64,000 nt of DNA, from contig QOQW01000004.1 of NCBI GenBank assembly GCA_003327425.1, forward strand, positions 186,001-250,000, read 5' to 3'. Position numbers and translations under genes: made by a program. This document shows positions 6,448-28,384 of this stretch, piece after piece (the first letter of the stretch is position 1; each line of letters begins with the position of its first letter). Source of the stretch: Candidatus Ozemibacter sibiricus (GTDB lineage Bacteria; Muiribacteriota; Ozemobacteria; Ozemobacterales; Ozemobacteraceae). A model generated the notes under the pieces. The model was not told the DNA's origin. It made no database searches and saw only the letters and a program-made list of their open reading frames with translations.

Positions 6448-6551
6448 CTCATCCCTCCAGACCGGGAAGCCCTGGCGGGGCTCCCTCGACAACCGTTCGC
6501 GATTTCCCCTTGGGGCGACCAAACGCCCCGCCACCATCGTCTCTTTCATGT

Positions 6552-10419: not shown

Positions 10420-10445
10420 GCTCGTCTTCCGCCCTCCCGGGCCCG

Positions 10446-11480: not shown

Positions 11481-11615
11481 GGCAGGCCCCCTGGCCCGGC
11501 CGCCCGACGCTCAACCCGGCGACGGGCCGCCGCGCCGCCCACCGGCGCGCTCGCCATCGCCGCCGGCCAGCGATCCCGGGAAAGGCAAGGCGGAAGCGCA
11601 TCGCTCGGGCTCCGC

Positions 11616-14600
11616 TCACGCCGGGCCGGCGGGCCGCTGGCTGAGGATGCGATCGAACGATTCGTCGAGATCGGTCAGGATGCGCAGGATGCCGCTCTTG
11701 ATCGACAGCAGCTCGTCGCTGGCCGGCGACACCTCATGGTTGGCGCGGATCTCCTGCTCGATGGCGGCCTCGATGGCGCGCACCTTGTCGACGAACATCG
11801 GCCGGTATTTCTTGACGATGGCGCTCTGCTGCGGCAGGGGCAGGCCGAGCCAGAATTCCTTGTAGACGGTGTTGATCAGGTAGATGCCCATCGTGTTGTT
11901 CTTCAGGTAGTCGAACAGCTCGGCGACGGTGCGCCCGATCGGTTGCGGCTTGTCCTGCTGGTAATGCAATTCGAACTGGACCAGTTCGTCGTTGTACTCG
12001 ATGCCATGGCGCGTCTTCTCGGCATCGGCGAACAGCTCGTAGCGCAGCAGCACATAGACGAGGTAGAGCTGTTCGAGGGTCTTGGCCGGAATCAGCCCGT
12101 AGCTCGACCACAGGATCGGATAGGCGTCATTGGCCAGCACGGCATGGCAGTTGATGCGGGCGTTGTTCTTGCGATAGAGCCCGTGCCATTGCGTGATGGC
12201 GCTGAGGTTGTAGGGGCAGATGCCATGCAGGGTCTGCATCAGCGTGATCGAGAAGGGGTTGCGGGTCGGGGCGATGGTCACGCCGAGGCCGGCCTTGAGC
12301 AGGGTCTCCTTGATCTCGGCGGCCAGCGGACTGGTCTCGTCGGCGATGCCGAGGGTGATGATGTTCATGCGGGCCGGCTGATTGTTGCCGCGATCGTTGA
12401 TGGTCAGCAGCGGCGCCGACTGGTTCATCATGCTCTCGATCAGGCTCTTCTTGAACCCCTTGCGGACCGAGTCCTTCCATTGGATGAACTCTTCGATGCC
12501 GCCGAACATGCGGCGGGCCACCACCTTGCGGCAGTAGGTGACGATGTCGTTCTCGAGGGAATCGCTCTCGGGGTTGGTGTAGGCGTCCCAGTTGCGGCCC
12601 AGGTTGATCTCGACCAGGAAGGCCCGCTCGATGTCATTGTTGGTCAGTTCGCCGAGCAGATACTTGTAGAACGGATCGATGTCGCGCTCTTCGAAGATGA
12701 AGGTGCCGACGAACTTCTGGATGTTGGAATAGGGCTTGATGCGGTCGAGACAGGCTTCATAGGACCGTTCGATGAAGCCGTTCTTGCTGATGGTATCGAG
12801 CTTGCGCGCGAACTCCTCGACCTGCCGTTTGATGTTGCCCACCTGCACGCCGAGGAACTTCAGGAAATCGGACGTCGCGCCCAGGCAGAACCGCTCGTAT
12901 TCGAGCTCGACCGCCTCGAGGGCCTTCTTCTCGAGCTTCTTGAATTCTTCATGGATGTTGGTCAGCGAGAACAGGGTGCCCAGCTCGAGCAGCTTGCCGC
13001 CCAGCCCGTACATCGAGCTGAGGCGGGCCACCAGCGCATCCTTCATCACGGTGAATTCGCGCTGCTCTTTGAGCAGCCGGTTCTTGATCTCTTCTTCCTT
13101 GCGGAAGGCGACCTCGCGCGGGAAGCGGTTGAGGAACTTCTCGAAGGCGGCCAGGAAGTCGATGGCGATCAGCGCCCCCATGTCGGGATCGTTGATGATC
13201 TCGAGCACCCGCTCCTTGAGGAACTTGCCGGCTTCGATGGCCGCCTTCTCGAACCCGACCTTGACCCGGGCCCGGATGTCGTCCTTCTTGACCTTGTTGC
13301 GCTCCATCTCGTCGATCTTGCGCAGGATGTAGGCGGTGGCCGACTCGCCGGGCAGCTGGGCCGCTTCGGTGCGCATCGTATGGAACTGGGGGTTGTCCCA
13401 GTACTGGGCCCGCGGGATCGTCTTCTTGGCCAGTTCGAGCAGGCCTTCCGGGGTGAGATCGAGCCGGTTGGGATCGCTCTCGACGAACGTGTTGACCAGC
13501 TGGTCGATGCTGATCTTGCCGGCCGACAGCTTCAGCCAGTAGGTGAGATCCATCGACAGCTTGTAGGTATAGAGGTCGAGAATGACGTCGAGCGGGTAGT
13601 GGAAGCTCTTGAGACCGGCGGTCGAGAAGCACTTCAACTGCTTGCCTTCCAGGTCGGAGCTGACCTGGCCGAGGATCTGGCTGGCGTTGTCGAGCATCGA
13701 GTTCTGGGCCTGGCGCAGGTTGGTGGCCAGCTTGGTGAAGATGAACTCGGCGGCGATCGCATTGTAGGTCGGGATGTCATCGAGGCCGGTCGTGCCCAGC
13801 AGGTAGCACTGATCGAAGGGCGGCTCTTCGCAGACGGTGCCGAAGGTGGTGGGATCATGGCTCTTGCCCAGGGGGCCGTAGTTGACCATGAACTTGTTGC
13901 GGCGATCCTGGGCCAGGATGTCTTTGGCGCTGCGCGACGGCGGGAACTTCTCTTTCGACATGAAATAGAAGATCTCGACCAGCGACGCGTAGCCGTTGGC
14001 CTCGAGCCGGCCGGTGGCGTTGACGTTGGGATCGATGGCGATCTGGTTGAAGGCTTCGGGGGTCAGCTGGATGCCGACCATGACCGGCTTGCCCTTGCCG
14101 CCCGACAACTGGTAGTAGGCCATCTTGGCCAGATAGGCGACGTCGAGGACCATGCCCGCCCCGGAGCCGCCGCACAGCGAGCCGACCACGTAGAATTCGG
14201 GGGTCAGGATCTGGCCCTGCTTGTTGGTCAACGGCACGATCAGATCGTCCTGGTTGACGTTCTTGCGTGCCATGATCTTGCTGACCTTCGACTTGATCAG
14301 CTGGTAGATCTTCTGGATATCGACGAACAGCCCGAATCGGCCCGTGAAGCGAAACTGGTGGGCCCCCTGACTGATCTGGCCGATGTGGTGCTTCAGTTTC
14401 ACGGGGAACCACTCCTGGAGATAGGAGTAGGTATCGGTGTCGAGGTTGCCCGTGATCTGATTGGCGTTCTGGATGTTGATCTGGTGGTATTCCTCTTCGC
14501 GCAGGCGCGCCCCTTCGACCTTTTCGTGCTCGCGCGCGTCGAACAGATCGGTATCGATGCAGAGCAGATCGATGAAATCGGGGAGGGCCGGCGTCTGATT

Positions 14601-14741
14601 GACCTGGGCGAAGGCCCGGCGAATCTGCGGACTGTTGAGGAAGGTCTCCTTGAAATTCATCAGGACCTTCTTGCCCGTGCCGCCCAGACCGATGATCAAG
14701 GCCGGATTCAGCGCAATGCGTTGCTCGAAATTGATGCTCAT
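11616..14741 (-). CDS. Large tubulin/FtsZ-like GTPase
   Basis: 1041 residues. The N-terminal domain starts with an ALIIGLGGTGKK nucleotide-binding loop (18-25) and contains SLCGGSGAGMVLD (188-200), which corresponds to the tubulin signature G-G-x-x-G-[ST/A]-G that contacts GTP phosphates. This is the layout of the tubulin-like family (FtsZl-1 type) rather than of cell-division FtsZ, and the protein is about 2.5 times as long as FtsZ. The C-terminal about 600 residues are helical with charged coiled-coil stretches. The ATG at 14741 is favoured because an optimal promoter lies just upstream; the frame continues to 18014 but that part is antisense to another gene. It is the first gene of the 14741-to-3132 operon. 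Probable role: filament or scaffold in membrane remodelling (inference). Confidence 0.85.
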   Translation of the reverse strand: MSINFEQRIALNPALIIGLGGTGKKVLMNFKETFLNSPQIRRAFAQVNQTPALPDFIDLLCIDTDLFDAREHEKVEGARLREEEYHQINIQNANQITGNLDTDTYSYLQEWFPVKLKHHIGQISQGAHQFRFTGRFGLFVDIQKIYQLIKSKVSKIMARKNVNQDDLIVPLTNKQGQILTPEFYVVGSLCGGSGAGMVLDVAYLAKMAYYQLSGGKGKPVMVGIQLTPEAFNQIAIDPNVNATGRLEANGYASLVEIFYFMSKEKFPPSRSAKDILAQDRRNKFMVNYGPLGKSHDPTTFGTVCEEPPFDQCYLLGTTGLDDIPTYNAIAAEFIFTKLATNLRQAQNSMLDNASQILGQVSSDLEGKQLKCFSTAGLKSFHYPLDVILDLYTYKLSMDLTYWLKLSAGKISIDQLVNTFVESDPNRLDLTPEGLLELAKKTIPRAQYWDNPQFHTMRTEAAQLPGESATAYILRKIDEMERNKVKKDDIRARVKVGFEKAAIEAGKFLKERVLEIINDPDMGALIAIDFLAAFEKFLNRFPREVAFRKEEEIKNRLLKEQREFTVMKDALVARLSSMYGLGGKLLELGTLFSLTNIHEEFKKLEKKALEAVELEYERFCLGATSDFLKFLGVQVGNIKRQVEEFARKLDTISKNGFIERSYEACLDRIKPYSNIQKFVGTFIFEERDIDPFYKYLLGELTNNDIERAFLVEINLGRNWDAYTNPESDSLENDIVTYCRKVVARRMFGGIEEFIQWKDSVRKGFKKSLIESMMNQSAPLLTINDRGNNQPARMNIITLGIADETSPLAAEIKETLLKAGLGVTIAPTRNPFSITLMQTLHGICPYNLSAITQWHGLYRKNNARINCHAVLANDAYPILWSSYGLIPAKTLEQLYLVYVLLRYELFADAEKTRHGIEYNDELVQFELHYQQDKPQPIGRTVAELFDYLKNNTMGIYLINTVYKEFWLGLPLPQQSAIVKKYRPMFVDKVRAIEAAIEQEIRANHEVSPASDELLSIKSGILRILTDLDESFDRILSQRPAGPA

Positions 14742-14774: not shown

Positions 14775-14804
14775 AGTATAGTCAGGCCCGGAAAAGGGTG
14801 TCAA
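14775..14804 (-). promoter_or_regulatory. Sigma70-type promoter of the tubulin-like/vWA/GTPase operon
   Basis: On the minus strand TTGACA (14804-14799), an 18-bp spacer and TATACT (14780-14775). The predicted start of transcription, near 14768, leaves a leader of about 27 nt before the ATG at 14741. This is among the best promoter matches in the window. Confidence 0.8.
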
Positions 14805-14969: not shown

Positions 14970-17942
14970 ATGACCAGCCCCCCTGGCCCCTCTCTGACGG
15001 GGCCGACCGCTCCCCCACCCCGCCCGTGGGGAATGGTGATATTGCTGGCGATCCCGGCCCTGCTGGCCGTGGGGGGGCTGTCCATCCTGCGGCAGGGCCG
15101 CCCTGATCCCCGCCGCCAGGCGGCCGAACTGGCGATGGAGGCCGCTCTGAACCAGGTCGAAGCCGGCAAAGAGCCCCTGACCCATTTCTCCACCGTGTTC
15201 CGGCGCGTCGAAGCCCGGGTCTTCCGCCGCGTGGGCAGCCCCGCGACGGCCTGGCCGCAGGAGAAAGCCCGGCTCGATCGCCGGTATCCCGGCCTGATCG
15301 ACGGCTTGCTGCTGGATGCCGACGGCCTGCCCGTCGCGGCCGCCGACGGGTCGGCCCTGCCCCGCCGCCTGACCCAGAAGTTCGCCCAGGCCATCCGGGA
15401 TCTGCATGAGCGCCGGCAGCCCCTCCCACCGGTGGTGACCTCGTTCATCCGCTCGACCTTCGGCCCGGCGGTGGCCACCGACCTGCTGGTCCCCGGGCAA
15501 CTGGTCTACGCCGCCCCGCCCCCCGCCGCTCGCTACCTCTACATCTCCCGGCCGCGCCCGGCCGGTCTGCTGGTGCTGCGGCTGTCGCCGCCCGGCCATC
15601 TCCACGATCTCGCCTTGCGCGATGTGGTGGCCGCCGTGAACCGGAACCTCGCGGCCGCCTCGCCGCCAGAGCCCTCTCACGCTGGCCCCCTGCGCCTGGC
15701 CATCGCCTGGGCCGGCCACAGCGGCCGGGCCCTGCTGCACCGGCTGCAGATGCCGGCGGAACGGTTCGGCGAGGTCTGGCCGGCGATGATCCGCTCGCCG
15801 ACCGGCATGGTCTGGATCGGCTCGCGGCTGCTCGCCCGCCGCCTCCTCCATCCTTCGGCCTGGGTCGTCGGCCGTCTCGATCTGCCGCCGGCCAGCGACC
15901 TGCCGCTCGCCTGGCCCCTGGCAGCCTATCTGGGCCTGCTCGCGATCCTCGGCTGGCTCCGCCATCCCTGGCTGACCGGCCTGTCCGCCGCGCTGACCGG
16001 CTCGGTCCGGATCCGCCTGGCGGCCACCTTCCTGTATGCGCTGCTGGTCCCCGTCCTGGGCATGGGGCTGATCGCCGGAGCGTTCGTGGCGAATCGCCGC
16101 GACGCCCTGGAAGCGGCCGTGCACGAACAGCGGGAGCGGGCCCTCCGCAGCTTCGACCTGCGCTTCCGCACCCACCTGCACCACCTGGGCGCCCGTCTCC
16201 GCCGCCGCCTCTTCCCGCCGGGAGACCCGCCCCCCGATGGCCTGCAGGCCTTCCTCGACCGTTTCGCCAGCTGGCGCGACGAGTTCCGCTTCGATTTCTG
16301 CCGGGTCTACGACCGCCACGGGATGCGGGTGTTCGGCTATGACGACCCCGCCGCGTCCTTCCTGCCGCGCAACGCCGAGATCTTCTTCGGACGGCTGGCC
16401 AGAAGCATCCTGCTGCAGACCGAGGTCGAAGCCGCCCGGCCCGGGCAGCCGCCCCGCCGCCGCGCCGAACTCCCCATCCCCCTGGAGGCGGTCTATTTCG
16501 ACGAACTGGAGACCGGGCCCTTCCACAATTTCCTTTTCTACTGGCCGCTGGGCACCCAGGCCGACCAGCCCACCCACATGGCGTTCCTGGTCTGGAACCG
16601 CAAGCGCATGGAACGCAACTACGTGCAGAGCGAACTGCCTCGCCTGGCCCGTCAGCTCGGAGAGGGCGAGATCTTCGCCTGGTCGCCGACCGGGAAAGGC
16701 CCGAGCTGGCCGCCCGCCTTCCGGCAGGCGCGTCTGGTGGCGCCGTTCCTGCGCGAGGTCACCACCAGCTCGCCCAGCTACCGGCGGCGGGTGCCGGGCG
16801 GCGAAGGGCAGAGCTGGCTCTTGACCGGAGTGCGCGGCACCAACCTCGCCAACTATTCCCTGCTCAGCCTGATCACCGACCGGGAAATCCAGGCCACGCT
16901 CGCCGATCTGGCCTGGTATTTCCGGTTCGTGGCGGGATCGCTGCTGCTGCTGGGGGCGCTGATCGCCTCGCTGGTGGCCAGAACGTTCCTGGTCCCGCTG
17001 CAGCGCCTGACCGGAGCGGTGACCGCCGTCGCCGCCCGTCGCTTCGACCATCGCCTGCCCCCGGGCGGGGATGACGAGCTGGGCCGGCTGGGCGAGCTGT
17101 TCAATACCGCGCTCGCCAGCCTGTCCGACCTGGAGGTGGCGCGGACCGTCCAGGCCCATCTGTTCCCCGCCGCGCCGCTGGCTCGCCCCCACTTCGTGGT
17201 GGTCGGCTCGACCCGCACGGCGGCCCAGGTCGGCGGCGATTTCTACGACTACGGCCCCGACCGCGCGGGAACGGGGTGGCGTCTGTTGATCGGCGATGTG
17301 GCGGGTCACGGCGTCGGGGCGGCTCTGGTGGTGGCCCTGGCCAAGACCGTGCTGGGGCATCCGGGCACCCCGCCCGAACCGACCGCGGCCCTGCGCTGCC
17401 TGCACGAGCGACTGCTGGCCATCCTGCAGCGCCGCAAGATGCTGACCTGCCTGCTCGGCTGGCTGTCGGCCGAAGGCGACCGCCTGCATCTGGCGGCCGC
17501 CGGCCAGACCTGGCCGCTGGTGGTCCGGGCGGGAACGGCGAACTACCTTCCCCTCTCCAGCCTGCCGCTCGGCAGCCGGGCCCGCTGGACCCCGGGCACC
17601 GCCACGCTCGACCTCCAGCCTGGCGATGCCGTCGTCCTGTATTCGGACGGCCTGGTGGAAGCGGCCGACCAGAACGGGAACCCGATCGGATATGAACGGT
17701 GGCGACGGGACCTGCCCGGCCTGCTCCGCGAGAACGCCGTCGCCACCGAAGCCGCCATCAGCGCCTGGCATCGCGCCCTGGCCCCGGCCGATCCGCCGGC
17801 CGACGACGTGACGGTGGTCGTGCTGCAACGGCCGGCCGCGCCCACGCCAGCAGCTGATTCCCAGCCGGCCGGCAGCCCGGGTGACCAGCCGACCGCCACG
17901 GCGGGCCCCCGGCCTGAGCCGCCTGCCCAGGAGCGCCGATGA
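14970..17942 (+). CDS. Receptor-type SpoIIE/RsbU PP2C phosphatase A1
   Basis: 990 residues. Hydrophobic spans at about 20-40, 309-330, 343-374 and 649-674 define two extracytoplasmic regions. A HAMP-like segment (about 675-725) leads to the PP2C-type phosphatase domain (about 735-955). Metal-binding motifs are intact: VGGDFYDY (near 754), GDVAGHG (775), SDGLVEA (892) and ADDVTVV (945). Family role: dephosphorylation of anti-sigma-factor antagonists or similar serine/threonine phosphoproteins in response to a signal; no STAS or anti-sigma gene is nearby, so the substrate is unknown. The C-terminus has a Pro/Ala-rich tail. The stop overlaps the next start (ATGA at 17939). It lies divergent from the tubulin-like operon. 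Confidence 0.88.
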   Translation: MTSPPGPSLTGPTAPPPRPWGMVILLAIPALLAVGGLSILRQGRPDPRRQAAELAMEAALNQVEAGKEPLTHFSTVFRRVEARVFRRVGSPATAWPQEKARLDRRYPGLIDGLLLDADGLPVAAADGSALPRRLTQKFAQAIRDLHERRQPLPPVVTSFIRSTFGPAVATDLLVPGQLVYAAPPPAARYLYISRPRPAGLLVLRLSPPGHLHDLALRDVVAAVNRNLAAASPPEPSHAGPLRLAIAWAGHSGRALLHRLQMPAERFGEVWPAMIRSPTGMVWIGSRLLARRLLHPSAWVVGRLDLPPASDLPLAWPLAAYLGLLAILGWLRHPWLTGLSAALTGSVRIRLAATFLYALLVPVLGMGLIAGAFVANRRDALEAAVHEQRERALRSFDLRFRTHLHHLGARLRRRLFPPGDPPPDGLQAFLDRFASWRDEFRFDFCRVYDRHGMRVFGYDDPAASFLPRNAEIFFGRLARSILLQTEVEAARPGQPPRRRAELPIPLEAVYFDELETGPFHNFLFYWPLGTQADQPTHMAFLVWNRKRMERNYVQSELPRLARQLGEGEIFAWSPTGKGPSWPPAFRQARLVAPFLREVTTSSPSYRRRVPGGEGQSWLLTGVRGTNLANYSLLSLITDREIQATLADLAWYFRFVAGSLLLLGALIASLVARTFLVPLQRLTGAVTAVAARRFDHRLPPGGDDELGRLGELFNTALASLSDLEVARTVQAHLFPAAPLARPHFVVVGSTRTAAQVGGDFYDYGPDRAGTGWRLLIGDVAGHGVGAALVVALAKTVLGHPGTPPEPTAALRCLHERLLAILQRRKMLTCLLGWLSAEGDRLHLAAAGQTWPLVVRAGTANYLPLSSLPLGSRARWTPGTATLDLQPGDAVVLYSDGLVEAADQNGNPIGYERWRRDLPGLLRENAVATEAAISAWHRALAPADPPADDVTVVVLQRPAAPTPAADSQPAGSPGDQPTATAGPRPEPPAQERR

Positions 17943-20932
17943 ACCAGCCTCATCCGGATGGCAGGGCGTTCTGGCTCGAGGCGGTCGGCGCGAGCCGGCT
18001 GGCCCGCCTGGCACGGGAGGCGGGACGCTGGCTGGCGGCGGCCATCCTGGCGGGCATTCCGCTGCTCTTCCTCAATCTCGGCTGGCAGCGGGAAGCCGAC
18101 CGCCTCCGCCAGCGCGAACAGGAGGAGGGCGAGCGGGTCCTGCGCCTCCTGCACAACCGGCTTCTCACCCAGGCCGGCCTGGAAGGCACGCTCTCGCTGG
18201 CGCTCGACACGCTGCATTGCCTTTGTCGGGGCAGGCCGGACGGCACCGCCATCCTGACCACCTGGCTGGACCGGCTGCGCCAGGACTTTCCGGGGGTCTT
18301 CGAGACGGCCATCTTCGCCCCTGATGGCCAACTGCTGATCGACCGATCCGATCTTCCCGAGTTCCATCCCGCGCTGGCCTCGTTCGGACGCGACATGCGC
18401 ACCTTCCTGGACGGAGACAGCCAGCCGCTGGAGCGGAACCTCCCCGCCTATCGACCGTTTCTGGGCCCGTTCCGGAAGGGGCAGGCCCGGCATCTGCAGA
18501 GCCTCGCCACCGTCCTGTCCTCCCTGTCGCGACGGCGGGCCCTGTCGTATGCCCAGGGCTGCCAGAAAGGCGATCCGTGGTTCCTGGCCTGGGTGACCAT
18601 TCCCGAGGATCCCATCGCTCTGGATCTACGCCTGCGGCAATGGTGGCTGCTCCTCGAGCGCCCCGACGGCTCGACCCGCGCCGCCGCGCTCGACCTGCGC
18701 CAGCCCCTCCTGCCCCAGCTGGCCTCCCTGGGACCGGCTGCCCGCGGCGCCGAACGGGCGTTGGCCGTGCTGGGCGACGATGAAGACCGGATCATCGCCC
18801 TCGATGATCACCTCTGGACCCAGGTGCTCGGCTCACGGCAGCATCGTCTGCTGCTGTGCCATCCGGACCCGGGCGGGGTCGCCTGGCGCCAGACCGTCGC
18901 CCGGGTCCGGGGGTGGCTGCTCATCGCCTTCCTGGTCAGCTTGAGCGGGGTGCGCTGGCTGCTGGGGCGAGGGGCGGGCCTGTCGCTGCGGTGGCGGCTC
19001 ACCGCGCTGTTCCTGTACTGCGCCGCCATTCCGCTCGGTCTGCTGGGCCTGGCGGCGCAGAGCCTGCTGAGCGACCGCGAGGCCGCCCTGGTCCGACAGC
19101 GCTTCCTGATCCAGGAGGCGATCCTGCAGGAAACGGCGCGCCGTCATGTCGAACAACTGGGCGTGATCGAGACCCGATTGCGGCGCACCTTCCAGCCGGC
19201 GGTGCCGGCCGGCGAAGCGGGGCCGCGGCGGGCCGCCGCGCTGATGCAGGCGCTGACCCGCCGCCTGCTGCCCAGCTACGCCGCCGTCATCGACACCGAG
19301 GGCCGGGTGCTCTTCCAGCGGCTGGAAGGCTTTCAAGACACCCTCGGCCCGCTGATCCCCTATCTGGCGCTGCAGTCGCGCCGCCGGCTGGCCGAGATCA
19401 ACGGCGAGACCATCCCGCCCGCCCTGGCCACCCGCGAACAGGCCGTGCTGGCTTCCATGGAGACCTTCGGCCTCAATCTGGCCGAAGTGGGAGCCATGCT
19501 GGAAGGGAGCGGCGAGCGGTTCGTCCCGTTCCGCATGGGCAAGTCGGCTGCCTACATCTTGCTGGCCCTCGTCCGGAACGTGACCGGACGGGCGGTCGCC
19601 AGCGCCCAGTTCCTGCTGGGCCGCGACCGCTTCCGCGATCGGCTGCCCGCGCTGCTGCGCGCCCTGCAGCAACGGCTGCCCGAGGGGCAACTCGTCGGCG
19701 GCTACCCCTGGGGCCCGCCGGGGGCGACCGAAGCCGCGCTGCTGCCGCTGACCGACGAGGTGAGCAGCGCCATCGACCGCTGGGGCGTGCCCGCCCACCG
19801 GGTTCTCGGAGCCCGGGACCGCGTCTATCTGATCTCGGGCCTGTTCAGCCCCGCATTGCACAGCCAGAAGGTCTTCATCGTCTCCGATGATGCGCGGCTG
19901 CGAGCCGATCTGGCCGCCACCCGCCGGCGACTGGCCCTGCTGGGCGCCGCGCTGGCCCTGCTGGGCGCCGCGCTCGGCTGGCTGGTCGGCGGCACCTTCC
20001 TGCGGCCGATCGCCGAATTCACCACCGGCCTGGCGGCCATCCAGGAGCGACGATTCGATCACCGGCTGGCGATCGAAGGGAACGACGAGTTCGGACAGCT
20101 CGGCGGCCTGTTCAACGACGTGATCGCCGGCCTGGCCGACCTCGAAGTGGCCAGCATCGTCCAGGATACCTTCTTGCCGCAGAGCCCGTTGTCCGATGCC
20201 GGCTGGGAGATCAGCGGCGCCACCCGGTGCGCCAGCCGGGTCGGCGGCGATTACTACGACTATTTCCCCCGGCCTGACGGCCGGTGGGTCCTGGTCGTCG
20301 GCGATGTCACCGGGCACGGGGTCGCCGCCGCCCTGGGGGTGGCCGTGGCCAAGGCCGCCTTCACCCACCCCGCCAACCCCGCCTCGCCCGCCGCCCTCCT
20401 CGATTTGATGAACCGGCTCGTGGGCAGCACCCTGGCCGGATCGCGGGCGATCACCTGCTTCCTGGCGGTGTTCGATCCGCGCGACGGCCGGTTGGTGGCG
20501 GCCAACGCCGGTCACCCCTTCCCGTTCCTGATCCGGCGGTCTCCGCCCCGGCCGTCGGCGACCGCCAACACCGGCACTCTCACGGGCGCCATCGATCCGG
20601 ACCATCACATCGAAGAACTCCAATTGCGGCATCCGCCGTTGGGCTTCGCCACCCGCCGCCCCTTCGAGGAGCGGGAATGGCGCCTGGGTCCCGAAGATTG
20701 GGTATGCTTCTATACCGATGGCCTCATCGAAGCTCCCGATCCATACGGCCTGCCCCTGGGCTTCGACCGCTGCCGGGCGATCCTGCCCGGCTGCCGACGC
20801 GCGTCGGCCGTGGCCACCCGCGAGGCCATCGCCGCGTGGCATCGGCAGGCCATGGGGCCGGCCGGCCCCACCGACGACATCACCCTGCTGGTGCTGCAGG
20901 GGTCCCAGCGGCCTTCCCCGCCCTCGGCGTGA
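17939..20932 (+). CDS. Receptor-type SpoIIE/RsbU PP2C phosphatase B1
   Basis: 997 residues with the same plan as its upstream partner: spans at about 31-50, 324-343, 352-377 and 664-688, a HAMP-like segment, then a PP2C domain with VGGDYYDY, GDVTGHGVAAAL, TDGLIEA (near 926) and TDDITLLVL. All expected metal-binding aspartates are present. It is closer in sequence to B2 (24158-27073) than to its immediate neighbour A1: both B proteins share TGHG in place of AGHG and an EREW/EDREI stretch before the DGLIEA motif. The 4-bp overlap with A1 implies coupled translation, suggesting an A/B heterodimer. The N-terminal extracytoplasmic region (about 50-320) is not recognised. Confidence 0.87.
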   Translation: MNQPHPDGRAFWLEAVGASRLARLAREAGRWLAAAILAGIPLLFLNLGWQREADRLRQREQEEGERVLRLLHNRLLTQAGLEGTLSLALDTLHCLCRGRPDGTAILTTWLDRLRQDFPGVFETAIFAPDGQLLIDRSDLPEFHPALASFGRDMRTFLDGDSQPLERNLPAYRPFLGPFRKGQARHLQSLATVLSSLSRRRALSYAQGCQKGDPWFLAWVTIPEDPIALDLRLRQWWLLLERPDGSTRAAALDLRQPLLPQLASLGPAARGAERALAVLGDDEDRIIALDDHLWTQVLGSRQHRLLLCHPDPGGVAWRQTVARVRGWLLIAFLVSLSGVRWLLGRGAGLSLRWRLTALFLYCAAIPLGLLGLAAQSLLSDREAALVRQRFLIQEAILQETARRHVEQLGVIETRLRRTFQPAVPAGEAGPRRAAALMQALTRRLLPSYAAVIDTEGRVLFQRLEGFQDTLGPLIPYLALQSRRRLAEINGETIPPALATREQAVLASMETFGLNLAEVGAMLEGSGERFVPFRMGKSAAYILLALVRNVTGRAVASAQFLLGRDRFRDRLPALLRALQQRLPEGQLVGGYPWGPPGATEAALLPLTDEVSSAIDRWGVPAHRVLGARDRVYLISGLFSPALHSQKVFIVSDDARLRADLAATRRRLALLGAALALLGAALGWLVGGTFLRPIAEFTTGLAAIQERRFDHRLAIEGNDEFGQLGGLFNDVIAGLADLEVASIVQDTFLPQSPLSDAGWEISGATRCASRVGGDYYDYFPRPDGRWVLVVGDVTGHGVAAALGVAVAKAAFTHPANPASPAALLDLMNRLVGSTLAGSRAITCFLAVFDPRDGRLVAANAGHPFPFLIRRSPPRPSATANTGTLTGAIDPDHHIEELQLRHPPLGFATRRPFEEREWRLGPEDWVCFYTDGLIEAPDPYGLPLGFDRCRAILPGCRRASAVATREAIAAWHRQAMGPAGPTDDITLLVLQGSQRPSPPSA

Positions 20933-21212
20933 CCTCCGGGTGGGGGCGGGCCGCCGACCGCTGGCCGTAGAACGCGCCCCCCCGCCCCCGCGCGTCAGGC
21001 GGAACGGAACCGCCGACGAAAGGAGGCCCGGCCCCGCCACCGCCTGATCTGAGCGGCGCATGGCGGCCGGCGACTGCCAGCGGCGCGCCGCGAAGGGATG
21101 CGCGAGCGCGCCGAATCCTGTACACTGGGGCCACGGTGGTCTGCCATGCCCCGGGAGCGACCCGGGCGCGCCGGCAGGCGTCACCGCAGACGAAGGAACG
21201 ACCAGAGGGGCG
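20933..21212 (+). other. Spacer between the two phosphatase pairs
   Basis: About 280 bp separate B1 from A2. A TACACT at 21121-21126 could be a -10 element, but no convincing -35 sequence is present at 16-18 bp. I see no gene, terminator or repeat here. The second pair may therefore either be cotranscribed with the first or have its own weak promoter. Confidence 0.4.
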
Positions 21213-24161
21213 ATGACCCAGCGACGCTCAGACGAACCGCAGATCGCCGCAGCAGGCCCACCGCGAACGACGCGCGCCATCCTGGTGGGCCTGGTCCTGT
21301 TCCCCTTTCTGCTGGCGGTGGCCGGGCGCGCCATCCTGTCGACCGGGGCCGACGAACAAGCCCGGGTCGATCTCCTCGCCCGCCTCGAGACCACCCTGAG
21401 CACGATCGAGGCCGGCAAGAGCCACCAGGAGCATTTTTCCCGCTTCTTCCAGCGCCTCGAGCGCCAGGTCTTCGCGGCCTCCGCCCCTGTCGCGGTCTGG
21501 AGCCGGATCATGCCCGCCCTCAAGGCCCGCTACCCGGGCCAGATCCAGGGGGTGCTGCTCGACGGCGAAGGGAATCCCCTCCCCGATTGGACCGATCGTC
21601 CGACCGCGCGCGCCCTGACCCGCAAGTTCGTCGCGGCCTACCGGCGGTTCCTCGACACGCAAGAGCCCATGCCCAGCCTGGTGGAGGGCTTCCTCAAGAC
21701 GTACTTCGGCCCCTTCACCGTGCCGGGCGTCCGCATCCACCGCCGTCTGTTCTTCGCCGCCGGTCAGCCGAACCGACGCTTCGTCTACCTGTCGGCGCCC
21801 CATCCCCAGGGGATGTTCTTCCTGTTCTTCAACCCGCGCGACGACATCCGGGTCCTGGCGCTCGAAGAGGCCGCGGCCGCCCTGCGCCGCCGGGGCGAAC
21901 CGGGGCGGCTGGCGGTGGCGCGGCGGGGCGAGCGCGGCGCGCGGGTCTGGCGCCGCCTGGGGCTGTCGCCGCACGACTTCGCCCGGCATTGGCAGGCGCT
22001 CCACCAGGCGACCGAAGGGCATATCTGGATCGGCTCGACCCTGCTGGCCCGCCGCCTGCTCTTTCCCGACCTGTGGATCGTCGGTCGGGCCGACCTGCCG
22101 ACCAGCGCCGCCCCCTATGAGCTGGTCCGGCCTCTGCTGTGGGGCCTGGCCGCTCTGCTGCTCGTCCTGGGCCGTCCGGGGCCGCTGGGCACCCTGCTCG
22201 ACTGGCTGGGCGGGTCGGTGCGCGGCAAGCTGATGGCCGCCTTCCTGTACTCGGCCGCCGTGCCATTGCTGGTCATGGGGTTGACCGCCCAGACCTACCT
22301 GCACAACCGGCGGGCCGTCCTCGAAGCCGAGTCGCACCAGGCCATGGAGGAGACGCTGCAAGGCTTCGACCGCCGGTTCCGGGTGCATATCGCCGAGCTG
22401 GAAGGCGATCTGCGCCAGTTCGTGTTCTCGCGCGAGCGCGCCCCCGCCGATGGGTTCCGCGACTTCCTCGATCGCTTCGCGGAGATGCGGACCCGCTTCG
22501 GCTTCAACACCTGCCGGATCTACGACCGCACCGGCGAACCCGTCTACGTCTGGAACGATCCGGCCGCTCCCGGCATCGGCCCCGCCACCGTCCGGGCGCT
22601 GGGCCGCATGGTCCGCCAGTTCTTCGTCCAGCTCGAGCGGGAGCGGCTGGCGGGCACCGCCAGCGAGGCCCGGCCGGTGGTCGTCAAGGGCGCCGATGAA
22701 TTCGCCGAGACCAGCATCAACATTCAAATGCTGTTCTTCAACGAGATGGAATCGGGACCCTTCCGCTATTTCCTGTTCACCGCCCCCCTCGGCACCGCCG
22801 AGCACCGCATCACCCATTTCGTGACCCTGGTCTGGGACAGCCGGCACATGGAGGTCAACTACCTGCGCCGCCACCTGCCGCGCCTGGCCCGACGGGCCGG
22901 TCGCGGCGAGTATTTCGTCTGGTCGCCCCTCGAGCCCGATCTCGCCTTCCCGCCCGATTTCCCCCATCGCCGCCTGGTCGCCACCACCCTGCGCCGGGTG
23001 TCATCGGCGACGCGCAGCCACCGGGCCACCCTGACGGGGCCGCGCGGTACCTGGCTGGTCACGGGGTTGCGCGGCACCGCCCTGCGGGGGTTCTCGCTGC
23101 TGGGCATGGTTTCGGATCAGCCCCTGGTCGCTGAGATCTCCAGCCTGCGCTGGAACCTGGGGTTCATCGCCCTGGTGATCGTCGGCGCCTGCATCATCAT
23201 CGGCGTGCTCCTGGCCGGGTTCTTCCTGGTGCCGGTGCGCACCCTGGCGGCCGGCATGACCGCCCTGGCCGACCGCCGCTTCGACACCCGCCTGCCGGTG
23301 GTCTCGAACGACGAGCTGGGAGGTCTGGCCAGCCTGCTCAACGACGCCCTGGGCGACCTGCAGGACCTGGAGGTGGCGCGCGCGGTGCAGGAGCTGCTCT
23401 TTCCCGGGCAGCCCCTGACAGCGGGGGCCTGGGGCATCGCCGGGCGCTGCCGCACCGCCAGCCAGGTCGGCGGCGATTTCCACGATTACAGCCGGCAGGG
23501 TGACGGCACGCTGCGGGTGGTGCTGGGCGATGTGGCTGGCCACGGCGTCGGCGCCGCCCTGGTGGTGGGGTTGGTCAAGGCGGCGCTCGGCCACCCGGGC
23601 TGCCCGACCGCCCCGGACGGCGCGCTGTCTTGCTTGAACAGTCTGCTGGGGTCGATTTTGCAACGCAAAAAGATGATGGGATGCAACCTGGCCGCCTTCG
23701 ACCCTGAAACCGCCATCCTGACCCTGGCCAACGCTGGGCAGACCTTCCCCATCCTGGTGCGGGGCGGGCGGGCCAGCTTCCTCGAACTCAAGGGGTATCC
23801 CCTGGGAAGCACCCGGAGATGGCAGGCCGCCTGCCGCCAGGAGAAGCTGCACGAGCACGATGCGGTGATCTTCTATACCGACGGCCTAGTGGAGGCCCTC
23901 GATGCTGATGGTCAGCCGATCGGATTCGATCGGCTGCTGGCCGTTCTGCCGGCTTTGTGTCGCCCGACGGCCGAGGCCACAGTGGAAGCCATCGAAGCTT
24001 GGCATCACGCCATGTCGCCGCAAGAACCGCCGGCAGATGACATCACGGTGGTCGTCCTGCAATGGCAGGGACTCGCCGCCACCGCCCTTCCCGCCTCCTG
24101 CCAGCTACCGGCAGCCGATTCCGACCAGCCGGGCCTGCCCGGCCCCGCCGAGCAGCCATGA
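21213..24161 (+). CDS. Receptor-type SpoIIE/RsbU PP2C phosphatase A2
   Basis: 982 residues. Spans at about 23-42, 307-322, 340-363 and 647-673, a HAMP-like segment, and a PP2C domain with VGGDFHDYS (near 752), GDVAGHGVGAAL, TDGLVEA and ADDITVVVL. It is clearly paralogous to A1 (14970-17942): the first extracytoplasmic regions align through EAGKxxxxHFSxxFxRxE and RYPGxIxGxLLD, and both have an xYFGPF/TFGP motif. The start at 21213 follows AGAGGGG; a longer frame from 21060 lacks a Shine-Dalgarno and reads through spacer-like sequence. The stop overlaps the next start by ATGA. One short stretch (23656-23670) uses AT-rich synonymous codons that create a palindrome also found upstream of the ABC1-kinase gene. 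Confidence 0.88.
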   Translation: MTQRRSDEPQIAAAGPPRTTRAILVGLVLFPFLLAVAGRAILSTGADEQARVDLLARLETTLSTIEAGKSHQEHFSRFFQRLERQVFAASAPVAVWSRIMPALKARYPGQIQGVLLDGEGNPLPDWTDRPTARALTRKFVAAYRRFLDTQEPMPSLVEGFLKTYFGPFTVPGVRIHRRLFFAAGQPNRRFVYLSAPHPQGMFFLFFNPRDDIRVLALEEAAAALRRRGEPGRLAVARRGERGARVWRRLGLSPHDFARHWQALHQATEGHIWIGSTLLARRLLFPDLWIVGRADLPTSAAPYELVRPLLWGLAALLLVLGRPGPLGTLLDWLGGSVRGKLMAAFLYSAAVPLLVMGLTAQTYLHNRRAVLEAESHQAMEETLQGFDRRFRVHIAELEGDLRQFVFSRERAPADGFRDFLDRFAEMRTRFGFNTCRIYDRTGEPVYVWNDPAAPGIGPATVRALGRMVRQFFVQLERERLAGTASEARPVVVKGADEFAETSINIQMLFFNEMESGPFRYFLFTAPLGTAEHRITHFVTLVWDSRHMEVNYLRRHLPRLARRAGRGEYFVWSPLEPDLAFPPDFPHRRLVATTLRRVSSATRSHRATLTGPRGTWLVTGLRGTALRGFSLLGMVSDQPLVAEISSLRWNLGFIALVIVGACIIIGVLLAGFFLVPVRTLAAGMTALADRRFDTRLPVVSNDELGGLASLLNDALGDLQDLEVARAVQELLFPGQPLTAGAWGIAGRCRTASQVGGDFHDYSRQGDGTLRVVLGDVAGHGVGAALVVGLVKAALGHPGCPTAPDGALSCLNSLLGSILQRKKMMGCNLAAFDPETAILTLANAGQTFPILVRGGRASFLELKGYPLGSTRRWQAACRQEKLHEHDAVIFYTDGLVEALDADGQPIGFDRLLAVLPALCRPTAEATVEAIEAWHHAMSPQEPPADDITVVVLQWQGLAATALPASCQLPAADSDQPGLPGPAEQP
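23656..23670. repeat. Palindromic element TTTTGCAACGCAAAA inside A2
   Basis: A 15-bp inverted repeat (TTTTGC / GCAAAA around AAC) inside the phosphatase coding sequence. The paralogue A1 encodes nearly the same peptide at this point with GC-rich codons (ATCCTGCAGCGCCGCAAG), so the AT-rich choice here is striking. It differs by one base from TTTTGCGACGCAAAA at 34638-34652. Confidence 0.5.
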
Positions 24162-27073
24162 ACGACGCCTCGCCGGTGCTTCCGACTCGTCCAGGCTGGC
24201 AGCTTTGGCTCACCGACCGCCGGTGGCACGGGGTGGGGCACCGGCTGCCGCTCTGGCTGGCCGCCGCATTGCTGGCCGGTCTGCCGGTGGTCCTGCTGTT
24301 CCTGGCCGGCGACCGGACGCTCGCCCGCGAGTTCCAGCGCGCCCGGGACGAGGCGGTCGTTCCCCTCGAGGAATTCCGCAGCCATCTCCAGATCGGCACC
24401 CGCTTCGAACCGATCCTCGAGGGTCTCGGCGAGAAGATCATGACCGGGGCCCGCCACAGCCGCGACCCCCTGATGCACCTCCATCAGGAGCTGACCGCCC
24501 TCCAGCGCGCGATCCCCGACACGTTCGAATTCGTGCTTTTCGACCACGACAGCCGTCTGGTCGCCAGCCTGTCCGATCTCCCCGAGCACCACGACGCCCT
24601 GGCCCGCTTCGGGCTCGCCCGCCGGCAGCTCTGGGAAAACGTGCCCGAGCCCATGGCCCGGCAGTTCCATGCATTTCGCGCCTTCCTCGGGCCTTTCATG
24701 AGCTACCGGCTCGACCTCTTCCATCGGCACCACGGCACGCCCAGCGCCTTCGAACGTCGGCGCGGGTTCGTCTACCTGAGCAGCCCGCGGCTGGACGGCC
24801 CCTGGTTCATGCTGTGGGTCAGCTTCCCGAACGACGTGCGCGAACTCAGCTTCCGTCTGCGCACGCTCCTGCGCGATCTGCCCACCCCCGATGCCGTGCT
24901 CGGCAGCATCGATCTGCGACAGCCGCTCGACCGCCAGATCGCCGCCATGGCGAGCGCCCCGCCTTCGCTCGAACGGGCTCTGCGGCTGATGGGCAATGAA
25001 GAAGACGACTGCCTATTCCACGAGGGTTGGATCTGGACCCAGGCCGCGATGTCACCGACCCGCCGGCTGGTGATCGGACGTCCCGATCACGCGCTGGCCG
25101 CCTGGGAACGCGGCCGGCGCCGCCTGATGGCCGCGCTGCTCGCCCTTTTCGGGGCGGTCACCATCCTGTGGCGTTGGTGGCTGGCCCAGGCCGGGGCCTG
25201 GTCGCTGCGCACCAAGCTGATCGTGCTGTTCCTCTATACTTCGGGGATGCCCCTCGGCCTGCTCGCCGTGGCGGCCCGCGGCTTGCTGGAAGATCGACAG
25301 GCCCTGCTCGTCCGGCAACGGTTCGAACGCCACGAGGCGACCCTGCGCGAGTTCCCCCGCACCGTCGCCCACCGTCTCAGCCTCTATGAAGCGGTCATCG
25401 ACCGCTCCCTGGCCGGCCCCCTCCCCGCCGGACCGGCCGCCCACGCGACGGCGGTCCGGCGCGCCCGCCGGCTGCTGCGTCGAGTCCAGCCCGACCTGTG
25501 CGCCCTGTTCGACGATCGCGGCCACAACCTGGTCCGCCACGTGAGCGGCTACGACCGGGAGGTGGAACCGATCATCCCCATATTCGGCATGCACGCCCGG
25601 CGGCGGGCGGCCCAGATCAACGGCGTGGAGCCCGATCTGCAGGATTCGACCCGCGACCAGGCCATGCGTGCCACCCTCGAAGCGATGGGCATCGATCTGG
25701 AGCCGTTCACCGCCAGCCTCGAGGAGCATCCGGGCCATTTCACCTGGACCGCGTTCGCCAAATCGGTCGCCTACTACCTGGGCTTCCCCCTCTGGGACCA
25801 GGCCGGCAAGCTGCGCGGCAGCGTCTTCGTGCTGTGGGGCCGCGATTACATCTTCAAGCGGCTGCCGCAGATGCTGGCCGCTTTCGCCCGCCGGACGCGG
25901 GAGATCACCATCGGCACCTACTACTTCAAAGGGTGGCTGCCGCCGGACTTTCCGTGTCAAAGCAAGGCCGAATCGCTGACGCCCCTGGCCTGGCGCCAGT
26001 CGACCGCGGTTCATGGCGCCCAGCCGACGGGCAGTGCCACGGTGCTGCTGACGGCCATCCTGGTTCCTGAACTGGAAGACCAGATCATGCTGGCGGCGTC
26101 GGACGACACCGGTATCCGGGCCGGGCTGCGCCGGCTGGCCGGCCGGTTCGGGCTGGCCGCGCTGGCCATGGCCCTGCTGGGCCTGGGCCTGGGGCTCTGG
26201 CTCACCCAGCACTTCCTGCGCCCGCTCGGCCGGTTCGGGGAAGGCCTGGCGGCCATCCGCCGTCGCGATTTCCGGATCCGGCTGCCGGTCGAGAGCGACG
26301 ATGAATTCGGTCGCCTGGCCAGCACCTTCAACACCGTGCTGGAGGGGATGGCGGACCTCGAGGTGGCCCGCATCGTGCAGGAGACGTTCTTCCCGCGCAC
26401 CGGCCTGCTCGCCCACGGCTGCTCGGTCTTCGGATCGACCCTCTCGGCCAGCCGGGTCGGGGGCGATTACTTCGACTACCTGGCCCTGCCCGACGGACGC
26501 TGGCTGCTGGTCATCGGCGACGTCACCGGGCACGGCGTCGCGGCGTCGCTGGGAGTGGCCATGGCCAAGGCGATCATCTGCCACCCGGCCACCCCCCTCG
26601 AACGCCCCTCGGCCATGCTGGCCCTCCTCAACGACATGGTGATCCGTACCATCGCCGCCAAGCGCATGATGACCTGCTTCCTGGCCATCTTCGATCCCGC
26701 CACCCGCCGCCTGATCGCCAGCAACGCCGCGCACAACTTCCCCTGGCTCGTGCGCGCCGGGGCCGGCGCCGAGCATCTCGCCATCCGCCACCCCATGCTC
26801 GGCATCAAGACCCGCCTCCCCTTCGAAGACCGGGAGATCGTGCTCGACCCCGGGGACTGGCTCTGCCTCTATACGGACGGCCTGATCGAAGCCGCCGGCC
26901 ACGACGGGCAGCCGATCGGCTATGAGGCCTTCCGCGACGCCCTGCCTGGCCTGTGGCGAGGCGACGCCCGCGCCACCCACGACGCCATTCGGGCCTGGCA
27001 TGCCGCCCGCCGCGCCGACCCCGCCCTCGCCGACGACGCCACCCTGGTCGTCCTGGCCGTTCCCCCGGCGTGA
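24158..27073 (+). CDS. Receptor-type SpoIIE/RsbU PP2C phosphatase B2
   Basis: 971 residues. Spans at about 30-51, 323-343, 352-377 and 666-690, a HAMP-like segment, then a PP2C domain with VGGDYFDYL, GDVTGHGVAASL, TDGLIEA and ADDATLVVL. Metal-binding residues are intact. It pairs with A2 through a 4-bp ATGA overlap and is the paralogue of B1: both share the MxALTRRLLPSYAAV/RRLLRRVQPDLCAL region and the REQAxxASMETFGLNL/RDQAMRATLEAMGIDL region. Expected role as for the other three: a membrane receptor that dephosphorylates a Ser/Thr phosphoprotein. It is the last gene of the array; the next gene is convergent 60 bp away. Confidence 0.87.
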   Translation: MNDASPVLPTRPGWQLWLTDRRWHGVGHRLPLWLAAALLAGLPVVLLFLAGDRTLAREFQRARDEAVVPLEEFRSHLQIGTRFEPILEGLGEKIMTGARHSRDPLMHLHQELTALQRAIPDTFEFVLFDHDSRLVASLSDLPEHHDALARFGLARRQLWENVPEPMARQFHAFRAFLGPFMSYRLDLFHRHHGTPSAFERRRGFVYLSSPRLDGPWFMLWVSFPNDVRELSFRLRTLLRDLPTPDAVLGSIDLRQPLDRQIAAMASAPPSLERALRLMGNEEDDCLFHEGWIWTQAAMSPTRRLVIGRPDHALAAWERGRRRLMAALLALFGAVTILWRWWLAQAGAWSLRTKLIVLFLYTSGMPLGLLAVAARGLLEDRQALLVRQRFERHEATLREFPRTVAHRLSLYEAVIDRSLAGPLPAGPAAHATAVRRARRLLRRVQPDLCALFDDRGHNLVRHVSGYDREVEPIIPIFGMHARRRAAQINGVEPDLQDSTRDQAMRATLEAMGIDLEPFTASLEEHPGHFTWTAFAKSVAYYLGFPLWDQAGKLRGSVFVLWGRDYIFKRLPQMLAAFARRTREITIGTYYFKGWLPPDFPCQSKAESLTPLAWRQSTAVHGAQPTGSATVLLTAILVPELEDQIMLAASDDTGIRAGLRRLAGRFGLAALAMALLGLGLGLWLTQHFLRPLGRFGEGLAAIRRRDFRIRLPVESDDEFGRLASTFNTVLEGMADLEVARIVQETFFPRTGLLAHGCSVFGSTLSASRVGGDYFDYLALPDGRWLLVIGDVTGHGVAASLGVAMAKAIICHPATPLERPSAMLALLNDMVIRTIAAKRMMTCFLAIFDPATRRLIASNAAHNFPWLVRAGAGAEHLAIRHPMLGIKTRLPFEDREIVLDPGDWLCLYTDGLIEAAGHDGQPIGYEAFRDALPGLWRGDARATHDAIRAWHAARRADPALADDATLVVLAVPPA

Positions 27074-27133: not shown

Positions 27134-28384
27134 TCAGGTTTTGCGCTTCTTGACCTTGGCCGAGGGGAACAGGACGTTGTTGAGGATGAGGCGGAAGCCG
27201 GGCGCTTCGCGGCGGTAATCTTCGACCGTGCGGCCGGGGGTGTGGCCGCCGTAGAACGAGAAGAACCCCTTGCCGAGGTAGCCCATCAGATACCTGACCG
27301 AGACTCCATCGTTGTTCTCGGCCAGGATGACCACGCTCTTCTTGATCAACGATCGCCGGAAGGACGTGGTTTCCCCGTCGAACCCGGGCAGGGTGCGCAC
27401 ATGGTTCTGATTGAGCAGACAGGGGATGGGATCGACCTGGGCCGAGAAATCGAACAGCGAGAAGGTAGTGCCGCGACCGGCCCCTGGCACATCGATGTCG
27501 GAATATTCGGAGAGGGCGCCGGTCATCACGGTGAAATCGGTGAAGGCGAAGGTATTGGCGTAGTTCAGCTTCTGGTTGGCCTGCGGATCGGCCGCATCGC
27601 CGTCGAAGAGGCTGGGCACGATGTCGATCCCTTGGGCGGCCAGGGCGATATCGACCGTCTCGGCCGCCGAGCACATGGCGAAGACGAAACCCCCGCCCTC
27701 GACGAACTCCCGCAGCGTTTGGGCGACCCGCTGTTTCATCATCCAGGTCTTGGCGAATCCGAGCTGCCGGGCCAGCTCGCGATCGTCGTCGCCGCCGGCC
27801 TGCTTGTGCCCCTGGCCGGTGAAATCCTTGTGGTGGATGTGGATCCAATCGAAGGCGGACAGGCCGCCCCGCAGGATGCCATCATCATAGATCACTTGGA
27901 ACGGGATGCCGGCATAGCGCAGCACCCCGGCCACCACGTCGGGGCTGTGCGGCGACGGCAGGTAGAGGCCGATGCGAGGCGCCATCTCGAGAGGAACCAC
28001 ATCCATGTTCTCTTCGGTGATCAAGGCCAGGATGGCCCCGACCTCGTCGGCCGACAGCCGTTCGACGGCGACGCCGGCCTGCCGTGCGCCATCGATGATG
28101 CCTTCGTCGTCAGGCAGCAGGAAGCTGCCGCCGCGATAGTTCAACAGCCAGAAGATGTTGGGGGTCGATTTCTCGAGCAGCCGATAGACCAGCCCGTAGG
28201 CCCGGCAATGGTCGGTCTGCACGTTGTCCATCGGCACCAGGAGGGCGGGGGCCCCGCCCTGGGCCCCGACCGGGCCAGAACCGCTCGCCAGCAGCGACCA
28301 GAGCAGACCAGCGACCAGCAGCCCCAGCCGCAGCCGCGGCGCAGCCCCCTGCCCACCAGGCAGGTGGCGCGTTCGTGGTTCCAT
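27134..28384 (-). CDS. Exported protein of a family often labelled asparagine synthetase B
   Basis: 416 residues with a signal-peptide-like segment (about 18-41, ending VGAQG). The body begins ALLVPMDNVQTDHCRAYGLVY and contains WLLNYRGGSF, HHKDFTGQ and GGGFVFAMCSAAETVD. These are hallmarks, as I recall, of secreted proteins common in Bacteroidota that databases call asparagine synthetase B although they lack both its synthetase and N-terminal amidotransferase domains. A glutamine-amidotransferase-like fold is possible, with the Cys of AMCSA at the nucleophile-elbow position, but that is inference. The ATG at 28384 follows GGGAGGCAGGGC. A TTGACA/TACCGT promoter lies at 28495-28523. True function unknown; the trehalose operon lies divergent to it. 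Confidence 0.75.
   Translation of the reverse strand: MEPRTRHLPGGQGAAPRLRLGLLVAGLLWSLLASGSGPVGAQGGAPALLVPMDNVQTDHCRAYGLVYRLLEKSTPNIFWLLNYRGGSFLLPDDEGIIDGARQAGVAVERLSADEVGAILALITEENMDVVPLEMAPRIGLYLPSPHSPDVVAGVLRYAGIPFQVIYDDGILRGGLSAFDWIHIHHKDFTGQGHKQAGGDDDRELARQLGFAKTWMMKQRVAQTLREFVEGGGFVFAMCSAAETVDIALAAQGIDIVPSLFDGDAADPQANQKLNYANTFAFTDFTVMTGALSEYSDIDVPGAGRGTTFSLFDFSAQVDPIPCLLNQNHVRTLPGFDGETTSFRRSLIKKSVVILAENNDGVSVRYLMGYLGKGFFSFYGGHTPGRTVEDYRREAPGFRLILNNVLFPSAKVKKRKT

Follow-up and report, generated by a model that had tools for sequence, protein, structure and literature searches.

In phosphatases of the RsbU type, activation follows from dimerisation of the phosphatase domains via helices alpha1 and alpha2, which a coiled-coil linker brings about; this mechanism is predicted to extend to HAMP-linked members of the family (PMC12143880). 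The PP2C domain of SiaA is likewise a dimer, formed via alpha1-alpha3 (PMC7647112), and RssB is a member of the PPM family that has no phosphatase activity and has kept the switch element (PMC12143880). The SpoIIE/RsbU-type phosphatases have been studied as homodimers; matched pairs of non-identical chains, sometimes with a catalytically dead partner, would differ from this arrangement. We describe here an array of receptor phosphatase genes in Riflebacteria that appears to be built from such pairs.

The receptor array and its surroundings

The window (the whole stretch of 64,000 nucleotides that was analysed, positions 186001-250000 of its contig) is part of a draft genome of 5.68 Mb in 58 contigs. 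At 14970-27073 it carries four plus-strand genes for HAMP- and SpoIIE-containing receptors of about 1000 residues, in the order A1-B1-A2-B2 (Table 1). A first-pass annotation, made from the letters of the DNA, had read this region as four SpoIIE-type receptors of 971-997 residues with ATGA overlaps inside each pair and two extracytoplasmic regions in each protein, and all of this was confirmed. The open reading frames match, PF07228 (SpoIIE) scored 116-138 bits in the four proteins against a cut-off of 25 (E 1e-33 to 1e-40), and HAMP was above the Pfam cut-off in every one of them. Four predicted transmembrane (TM) helices per protein bound the two extracytoplasmic regions, in a TM-extracytoplasmic domain-TM-HAMP layout. 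The first-pass annotation suggested from this anatomy that the array could integrate up to eight inputs; what the sequences show is the four TM helices and the two extracytoplasmic domains of each protein. The overlaps of A1 with B1 (17939-17942) and of A2 with B2 (24158-24161) both read ATGA. An in-frame ATG at 21060 would allow a longer A2 of 1033 residues.

Table 1. Coordinates of the receptor genes, the adjoining features and a longer array from another genus
Feature	Position	Strand	Description
A1	14970..17942	+	receptor phosphatase, 990 aa; 4 TM; two extracytoplasmic domains; HAMP 668-719; SpoIIE 768-954; metal ligands DDDD
B1	17939..20932	+	receptor phosphatase, 997 aa; HAMP 683-731; SpoIIE 779-987; ligands intact
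B1-A2 gap	20933..21212	+	280 nt separating the two pairs
A2	21213..24161	+	receptor phosphatase, 982 aa; HAMP 666-717; SpoIIE 764-951; ligands intact
B2	24158..27073	+	receptor phosphatase, 971 aa; HAMP 681-729; SpoIIE 778-968; ligands intact
Convergent flank gene	27134..28384	-	416 aa, without Pfam match; outside the receptor system
L084-L086	G012:C10:80001-105000		giant SpoIIE receptors, six in a row, forming three tandem A-B pairs

The aspartates that bind metal in PPM phosphatases (motifs GGD, GD, [TS]DG and DD) are DDDD in A1, B1, A2 and B2, and A1 and A2 themselves look active as phosphatases. In an AlphaFold2 model of A2 (pLDDT 74) the catalytic domain has the PPM fold; its best structural match is the PP2C domain of SiaA (6k4e; Z 24.8, rmsd 3.1, 240 aligned), and RssB is matched at Z 24.4. 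The second extracytoplasmic domain (model pLDDT 72) resembles Cache/PAS sensors, such as those of TlpB (Z 10.6) and WalK (Z 10.3); the ranked structural matches included none to the first extracytoplasmic domain, and the Pfam search gave no Cache match in the window receptors. The alpha0 and alpha1 motifs of the RsbU-type phosphatases are conserved in these receptors.

The gap between B1 and A2 has no Rfam match, and neither a sigma70-like promoter nor a terminator was found in it. ARAGORN called a "tRNA-???" with a four-base anticodon between the two genes (20989-21088, minus strand), which was treated as probably spurious, considering that it has no Rfam match and lies in GC-rich DNA. The neighbours of the array, assigned from open reading frames with Pfam support, are Tubulin_2, VWA, dynamin-like GTPase, TPR and amylase genes. 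A minus-strand cluster at 3376-14741, divergent from the receptors, encodes a TPR protein, two GTPases of the dynamin/MMR_HSR1 type (6552-8519 and 8455-10668), a VWA protein (10446-11480) and a Tubulin_2 protein of 1041 residues (11616-14741), and is possibly a membrane- or cytoskeleton-remodelling operon. A near-consensus sigma70 promoter, TTGACA-18-TATACT, lies upstream of the Tubulin_2 gene (14775-14804, minus strand). Unlike that gene, the receptor array showed no sigma70-like promoter, and it may be transcribed via another sigma factor. At the far end of the window (62001-64000) the G+C content is 54%, compared to about 68% in the remainder.

An old duplication of the pair

Separate trees, with relatives, were built for the first extracytoplasmic domain (ECD1), the second (ECD2) and the HAMP plus catalytic domain. 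A1, A2 and their ortholog in G001, another species of the genus, formed a clade with support of 98/95 (ECD1), 100/99 (ECD2) and 99/99 (HAMP plus catalytic); the corresponding values for B1, B2 and the G001 ortholog were 100/98, 100/100 and 100/99. Bootstrap values of 98-100 thus join A1 with A2 and B1 with B2 in all three domain trees, and the resemblance that had been proposed for both the sensor and the catalytic parts holds. A grouping of A1 with B1, which the first-pass annotation had named as the outcome that would speak against it, was seen in none of the trees; A1 and B1 are 28% identical.

Within five of the six clades the G001 gene pairs with A2 or B2 and leaves A1 or B1 as the outer branch; ECD1 of B was unresolved. 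The A2-B2 pair is nearer to the pair of the other species than to A1-B1, and the pair therefore duplicated before the species split. The duplication of a pair, as originally claimed, stands on these trees. A recent tandem event is ruled out by the 45% identity of A1 and A2 and by the closer match of A2 to its G001 ortholog (57%). The pattern is genome-wide, not peculiar to this locus. At the orthologous site G001 has a pair of the A2-B2 type alone, with the same downstream gene (81% identical to the 416-residue flank gene) and without the upstream Tubulin_2 gene of the window. A1-B1 may have been lost from G001 or be missing from an incomplete assembly of it, or the window may have received this pair from a relative that has not been sampled.

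Matched pairs across the family

The window array is one case of a genome-wide pattern. The source genome has 61 SpoIIE matches (about 60 domains), and counts per genome run from 13 to 67 in this family versus 3-15 in other families of the phylum. We compared 54 A-B pairs from three Riflebacteria genomes: 17 from the source genome, 21 among the loci fetched from G001, and 16 from G012, which belongs to another genus of the family. Gene order is A then B in every one of the 54, and the start codon overlaps the stop codon by 4 nt at 32 of the junctions. G012 has an array of three tandem pairs (Table 1) and another of two. Among named genomes, the Riflebacteria contig L102 (JAAYVD010000172.1, 130,740 bp) carries the gene pair of G001:C77, and a second Riflebacteria genome, L101 (JADFZL01), has an A-B pair as well. 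About 13 related receptors of the source genome stand alone; one of them, L031, is orthologous to the A partner in a G001 pair (L065), which possibly reflects recent gain or loss of a partner.

In a tree of the sensors of 123 receptors, each A superfamily has its own B superfamily, with the inner order largely matching, and the catalytic tree agrees where it is resolved. The A-A and B-B sensor distances were correlated with a Mantel r of 0.92 (52 pairs; permutation maximum 0.17), those of the catalytic domains with an r of 0.44 (permutation maximum 0.21). For 41 of the 52 pairs the nearest A and the nearest B came from one pair, against 1 expected, and among all 54 no partner swap between superfamilies was found. 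Approximately unbiased (AU) tests rejected a single clade of all A members (p 3e-46) and a single clade of all B members (p 6e-6), which rules out one ancient A/B split for all pairs; pairing therefore arose several times. The stand-alone receptors mostly form clades of their own. After each origin of pairing the pair multiplied as a unit. The mirrored trees show co-inheritance, not contact, because linked genes duplicate together.

A members that have lost metal ligands

In this genus at least one metal ligand is lost in 14 of 38 A members, whereas all 38 B members and all 18 stand-alone receptors keep the full set (Fisher, A versus B, 3e-5), although the tree needs only about 8 state changes, such that the asymmetry rests on few events; several of the affected A members lack all four ligands. 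In the G012 locus L087 (G012:C17), which has two tandem pairs, both B members lack the third metal ligand, TDG having changed to GG or SG, so that the loss falls on the side opposite to the usual one. A is accordingly not the regulatory subunit in general. The data are consistent with a rule of at least one active member per pair, but do not exceed chance: both members are altered in 1 of 54 pairs, which is no rarer than chance.

The retention of other features was followed in 14 A members with two or fewer of the four ligands (12 from this genus and 2 from G012), here called dead. Their conserved columns were retained at 0.24 in the active site, 0.77 in the alpha0 linker, 0.76 in the alpha1 switch helix and 0.64 elsewhere. 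These figures come from an unselected column set, since hand-picked alpha0 and alpha1 columns overstated the retention; the excess of alpha0 plus alpha1 over the other conserved columns is modest (p = 0.012). Between the G000 and G001 orthologs, the sensor end branches of dead A and partner were 0.73 versus 0.89 (L025/L099) and 0.56 versus 0.54 (L033/L064), whereas those of the catalytic domains were 1.36 versus 0.55 and 1.13 versus 0.25. The dead A members are old and common to two species, with their frames of about 1000 residues and their sensors intact. They look maintained rather than decaying, and this maintenance is the strongest hint that A may act through B. Two further proteins, L028 (4300-7257) and L046 (9512-12970), have the double-sensor region without a recognisable SpoIIE domain and adjoin SpoIIE genes; they appear to be extreme sensor-only partners.

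STAS proteins as likely targets

The array had been described as having no STAS or anti-sigma partner, which is correct for the window and not for the genome. None of the genome's STAS or HATPase_c_2 matches falls within the window, and the partner-switching operon layout, with STAS and HATPase_c_2 genes beside the phosphatases, does not occur there. The suggested search for orphan genes elsewhere turned up, across the genome, 20 STAS domains and about 7 HATPase_c_2 domains with strong matches. The L009 pair on contig C1 and its ortholog in the other species, L067 of G001, are each followed immediately by a same-strand STAS gene (PF01740); at the C1 pair the STAS gene is the only part of that layout beside the phosphatases. 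A [DN]SxG-type acceptor motif is kept in most of the STAS domains inspected. Because of these 20 genomic STAS domains, the STAS gene beside the L009 and L067 pairs and the kept acceptor motifs, the output of the receptors is likely the dephosphorylation of STAS proteins in trans.

Discussion

We propose that the two products of each A-B unit are subunits of a single receptor phosphatase in the membrane, an A/B heteromer, and assign this reading a rough probability of 0.57. A and B would join via HAMP, the linker alpha0 and the switch helix alpha1, the interface through which RsbU is activated and which SiaA also shows; signals from both chains, that is from four sensor domains, would set the geometry of one phosphatase dimer and thereby its activity. 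The target would be phospho-Ser/Thr on STAS proteins encoded elsewhere, and these would pass the signal to a partner-switching network. In other pairs of this genome the A member would have turned into a pseudophosphatase, left with the roles of sensing and of holding or activating B; in the window pairs both chains still look active. As part of the same model, and held with the same modest preference, the window array would be two receptors derived from the old pair duplication, both sensors of which then diverged. The co-evolved A/B heterodimers of the first-pass annotation gain indirect support from the 54 pairs, their mirrored trees, the repeated pairing, the coupled start and stop codons and the dead A members; the heterodimer itself is plausible, and we infer it from sequence comparison.

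The heteromer is favoured because the dead A members keep their sensors, linker and switch helix. Consistent with it are the domain trees, the constant A-then-B order, the mirrored trees and repeated origin of pairing, the 4-nt overlaps, the confinement of ligand loss in this genus to A, and dead-A sensors that evolve about as fast as those of their partners, together with a SiaA/RssB-like catalytic fold in a family that is activated by dimerisation through alpha0/alpha1/alpha2 (PMC12143880; for the SiaA PP2C dimer, PMC7647112), the STAS gene that follows one pair in each of two species, and the STAS and HATPase_c_2 domains of the genome. Against it, operon linkage would mirror the trees without contact of the products, the few ligand-loss changes and the altered B members of L087 weaken the asymmetry, pairs altered on both sides are not depleted relative to chance, and the modest excess in alpha0 and alpha1 may reflect helices kept for folding. 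An alternative is that A and B form separate homodimers, sensing different cues and co-transcribed for the same STAS substrate or process; linkage would lead to their joint duplication and would by itself account for the mirrored trees. The four window proteins keep their catalytic ligands, and each could be a self-sufficient homodimer; the stand-alone receptors indicate that one chain suffices in principle; and both the SiaA PP2C domain (PMC7647112) and RsbU (PMC12143880) are homodimers. Yet a homodimer of a dead A would have no output, while these proteins have kept full frames and sensors across two species, and the lack of superfamily swaps among 54 pairs and the coupled start and stop codons exceed what shared regulation would need. 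We regard separate homodimers as unlikely, if a serious contender.

A plain tandem expansion of the receptor family, with pairing devoid of function and dead A members en route to loss, would suit the large number of SpoIIE domains in this family and the arrays of six and four genes in G012. It predicts neighbours of the A-A or B-B kind and odd gene numbers, however, whereas the arrays consist of whole A-B units, and the dead A members are old, common to species and conserved in their sensors; this explanation was already disfavoured and is very improbable. An A/B hetero-oligomer might also have an output other than STAS dephosphorylation, acting on another phosphoprotein or mainly as a scaffold. 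The surroundings of the window array contain no STAS or anti-sigma gene, and RssB of E. coli is an adaptor with an inactive PPM domain (PMC12143880). Among the closest solved relatives, in contrast, SiaA acts on the STAS-type SiaC and others belong to sigma-factor control, and the STAS gene beside another pair in two species and the [DN]SxG-type motifs of most inspected STAS domains point the same way, so that we give a non-STAS output very little weight.

Our literature searches found no paper joining SpoIIE and Riflebacteria, no heterodimeric or pseudo SpoIIE receptors, and nothing relevant on lineage-specific SpoIIE expansion; within the literature searched, there is no earlier description of receptor phosphatases in matched pairs that include pseudophosphatases. 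The broader reading, to which we give even odds, is that Riflebacteria use obligate heterodimeric receptor phosphatases, with dozens of A/B co-receptors that were paired independently several times and have one chain that is able to turn into a pseudophosphatase serving as a sensor only. If true, these would be to phosphatases what pseudokinase co-receptors are to kinases, and many receptors would feed into about 20 STAS switches. Bacteria would then be seen to be capable of large sensing networks made of phosphatases, a role that histidine kinases or chemoreceptors fill in others. The natural set of more than 50 pairs would allow tests of how dimerisation controls activation, what makes the interfaces specific and how pseudoenzyme subunits evolve.

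Comparison with known systems

RetS-GacS offers a functional analogy in that two related membrane sensors pair to modulate one output; these are histidine kinases and are not known to have multiplied as a unit. To our knowledge, RetS-GacS is not a translationally coupled gene pair. RssB of E. coli and Pseudomonas has lost phosphatase activity and kept the switch, as have the dead A members here, but is a soluble response regulator and protease adaptor, not a co-receptor. RsbU and RsbP share with the present receptors a SpoIIE/PPM output under an alpha0 coiled-coil linker and an alpha1/alpha2 switch; they differ in being soluble homodimers, activated by RsbT or RsbQ, without a paired paralogous receptor subunit. 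SiaA of the Pseudomonas aeruginosa SiaABC system is alike in that it is a receptor in the membrane and combines HAMP with a PP2C/SpoIIE output. It differs in that it has 663 residues and two TM helices, and is a homodimer from one gene that is accompanied by the kinase SiaB and the substrate SiaC, whereas the receptors described here, with no kinase or STAS gene alongside, have 971-997 residues, four TM helices, two extracytoplasmic domains and two genes per unit.
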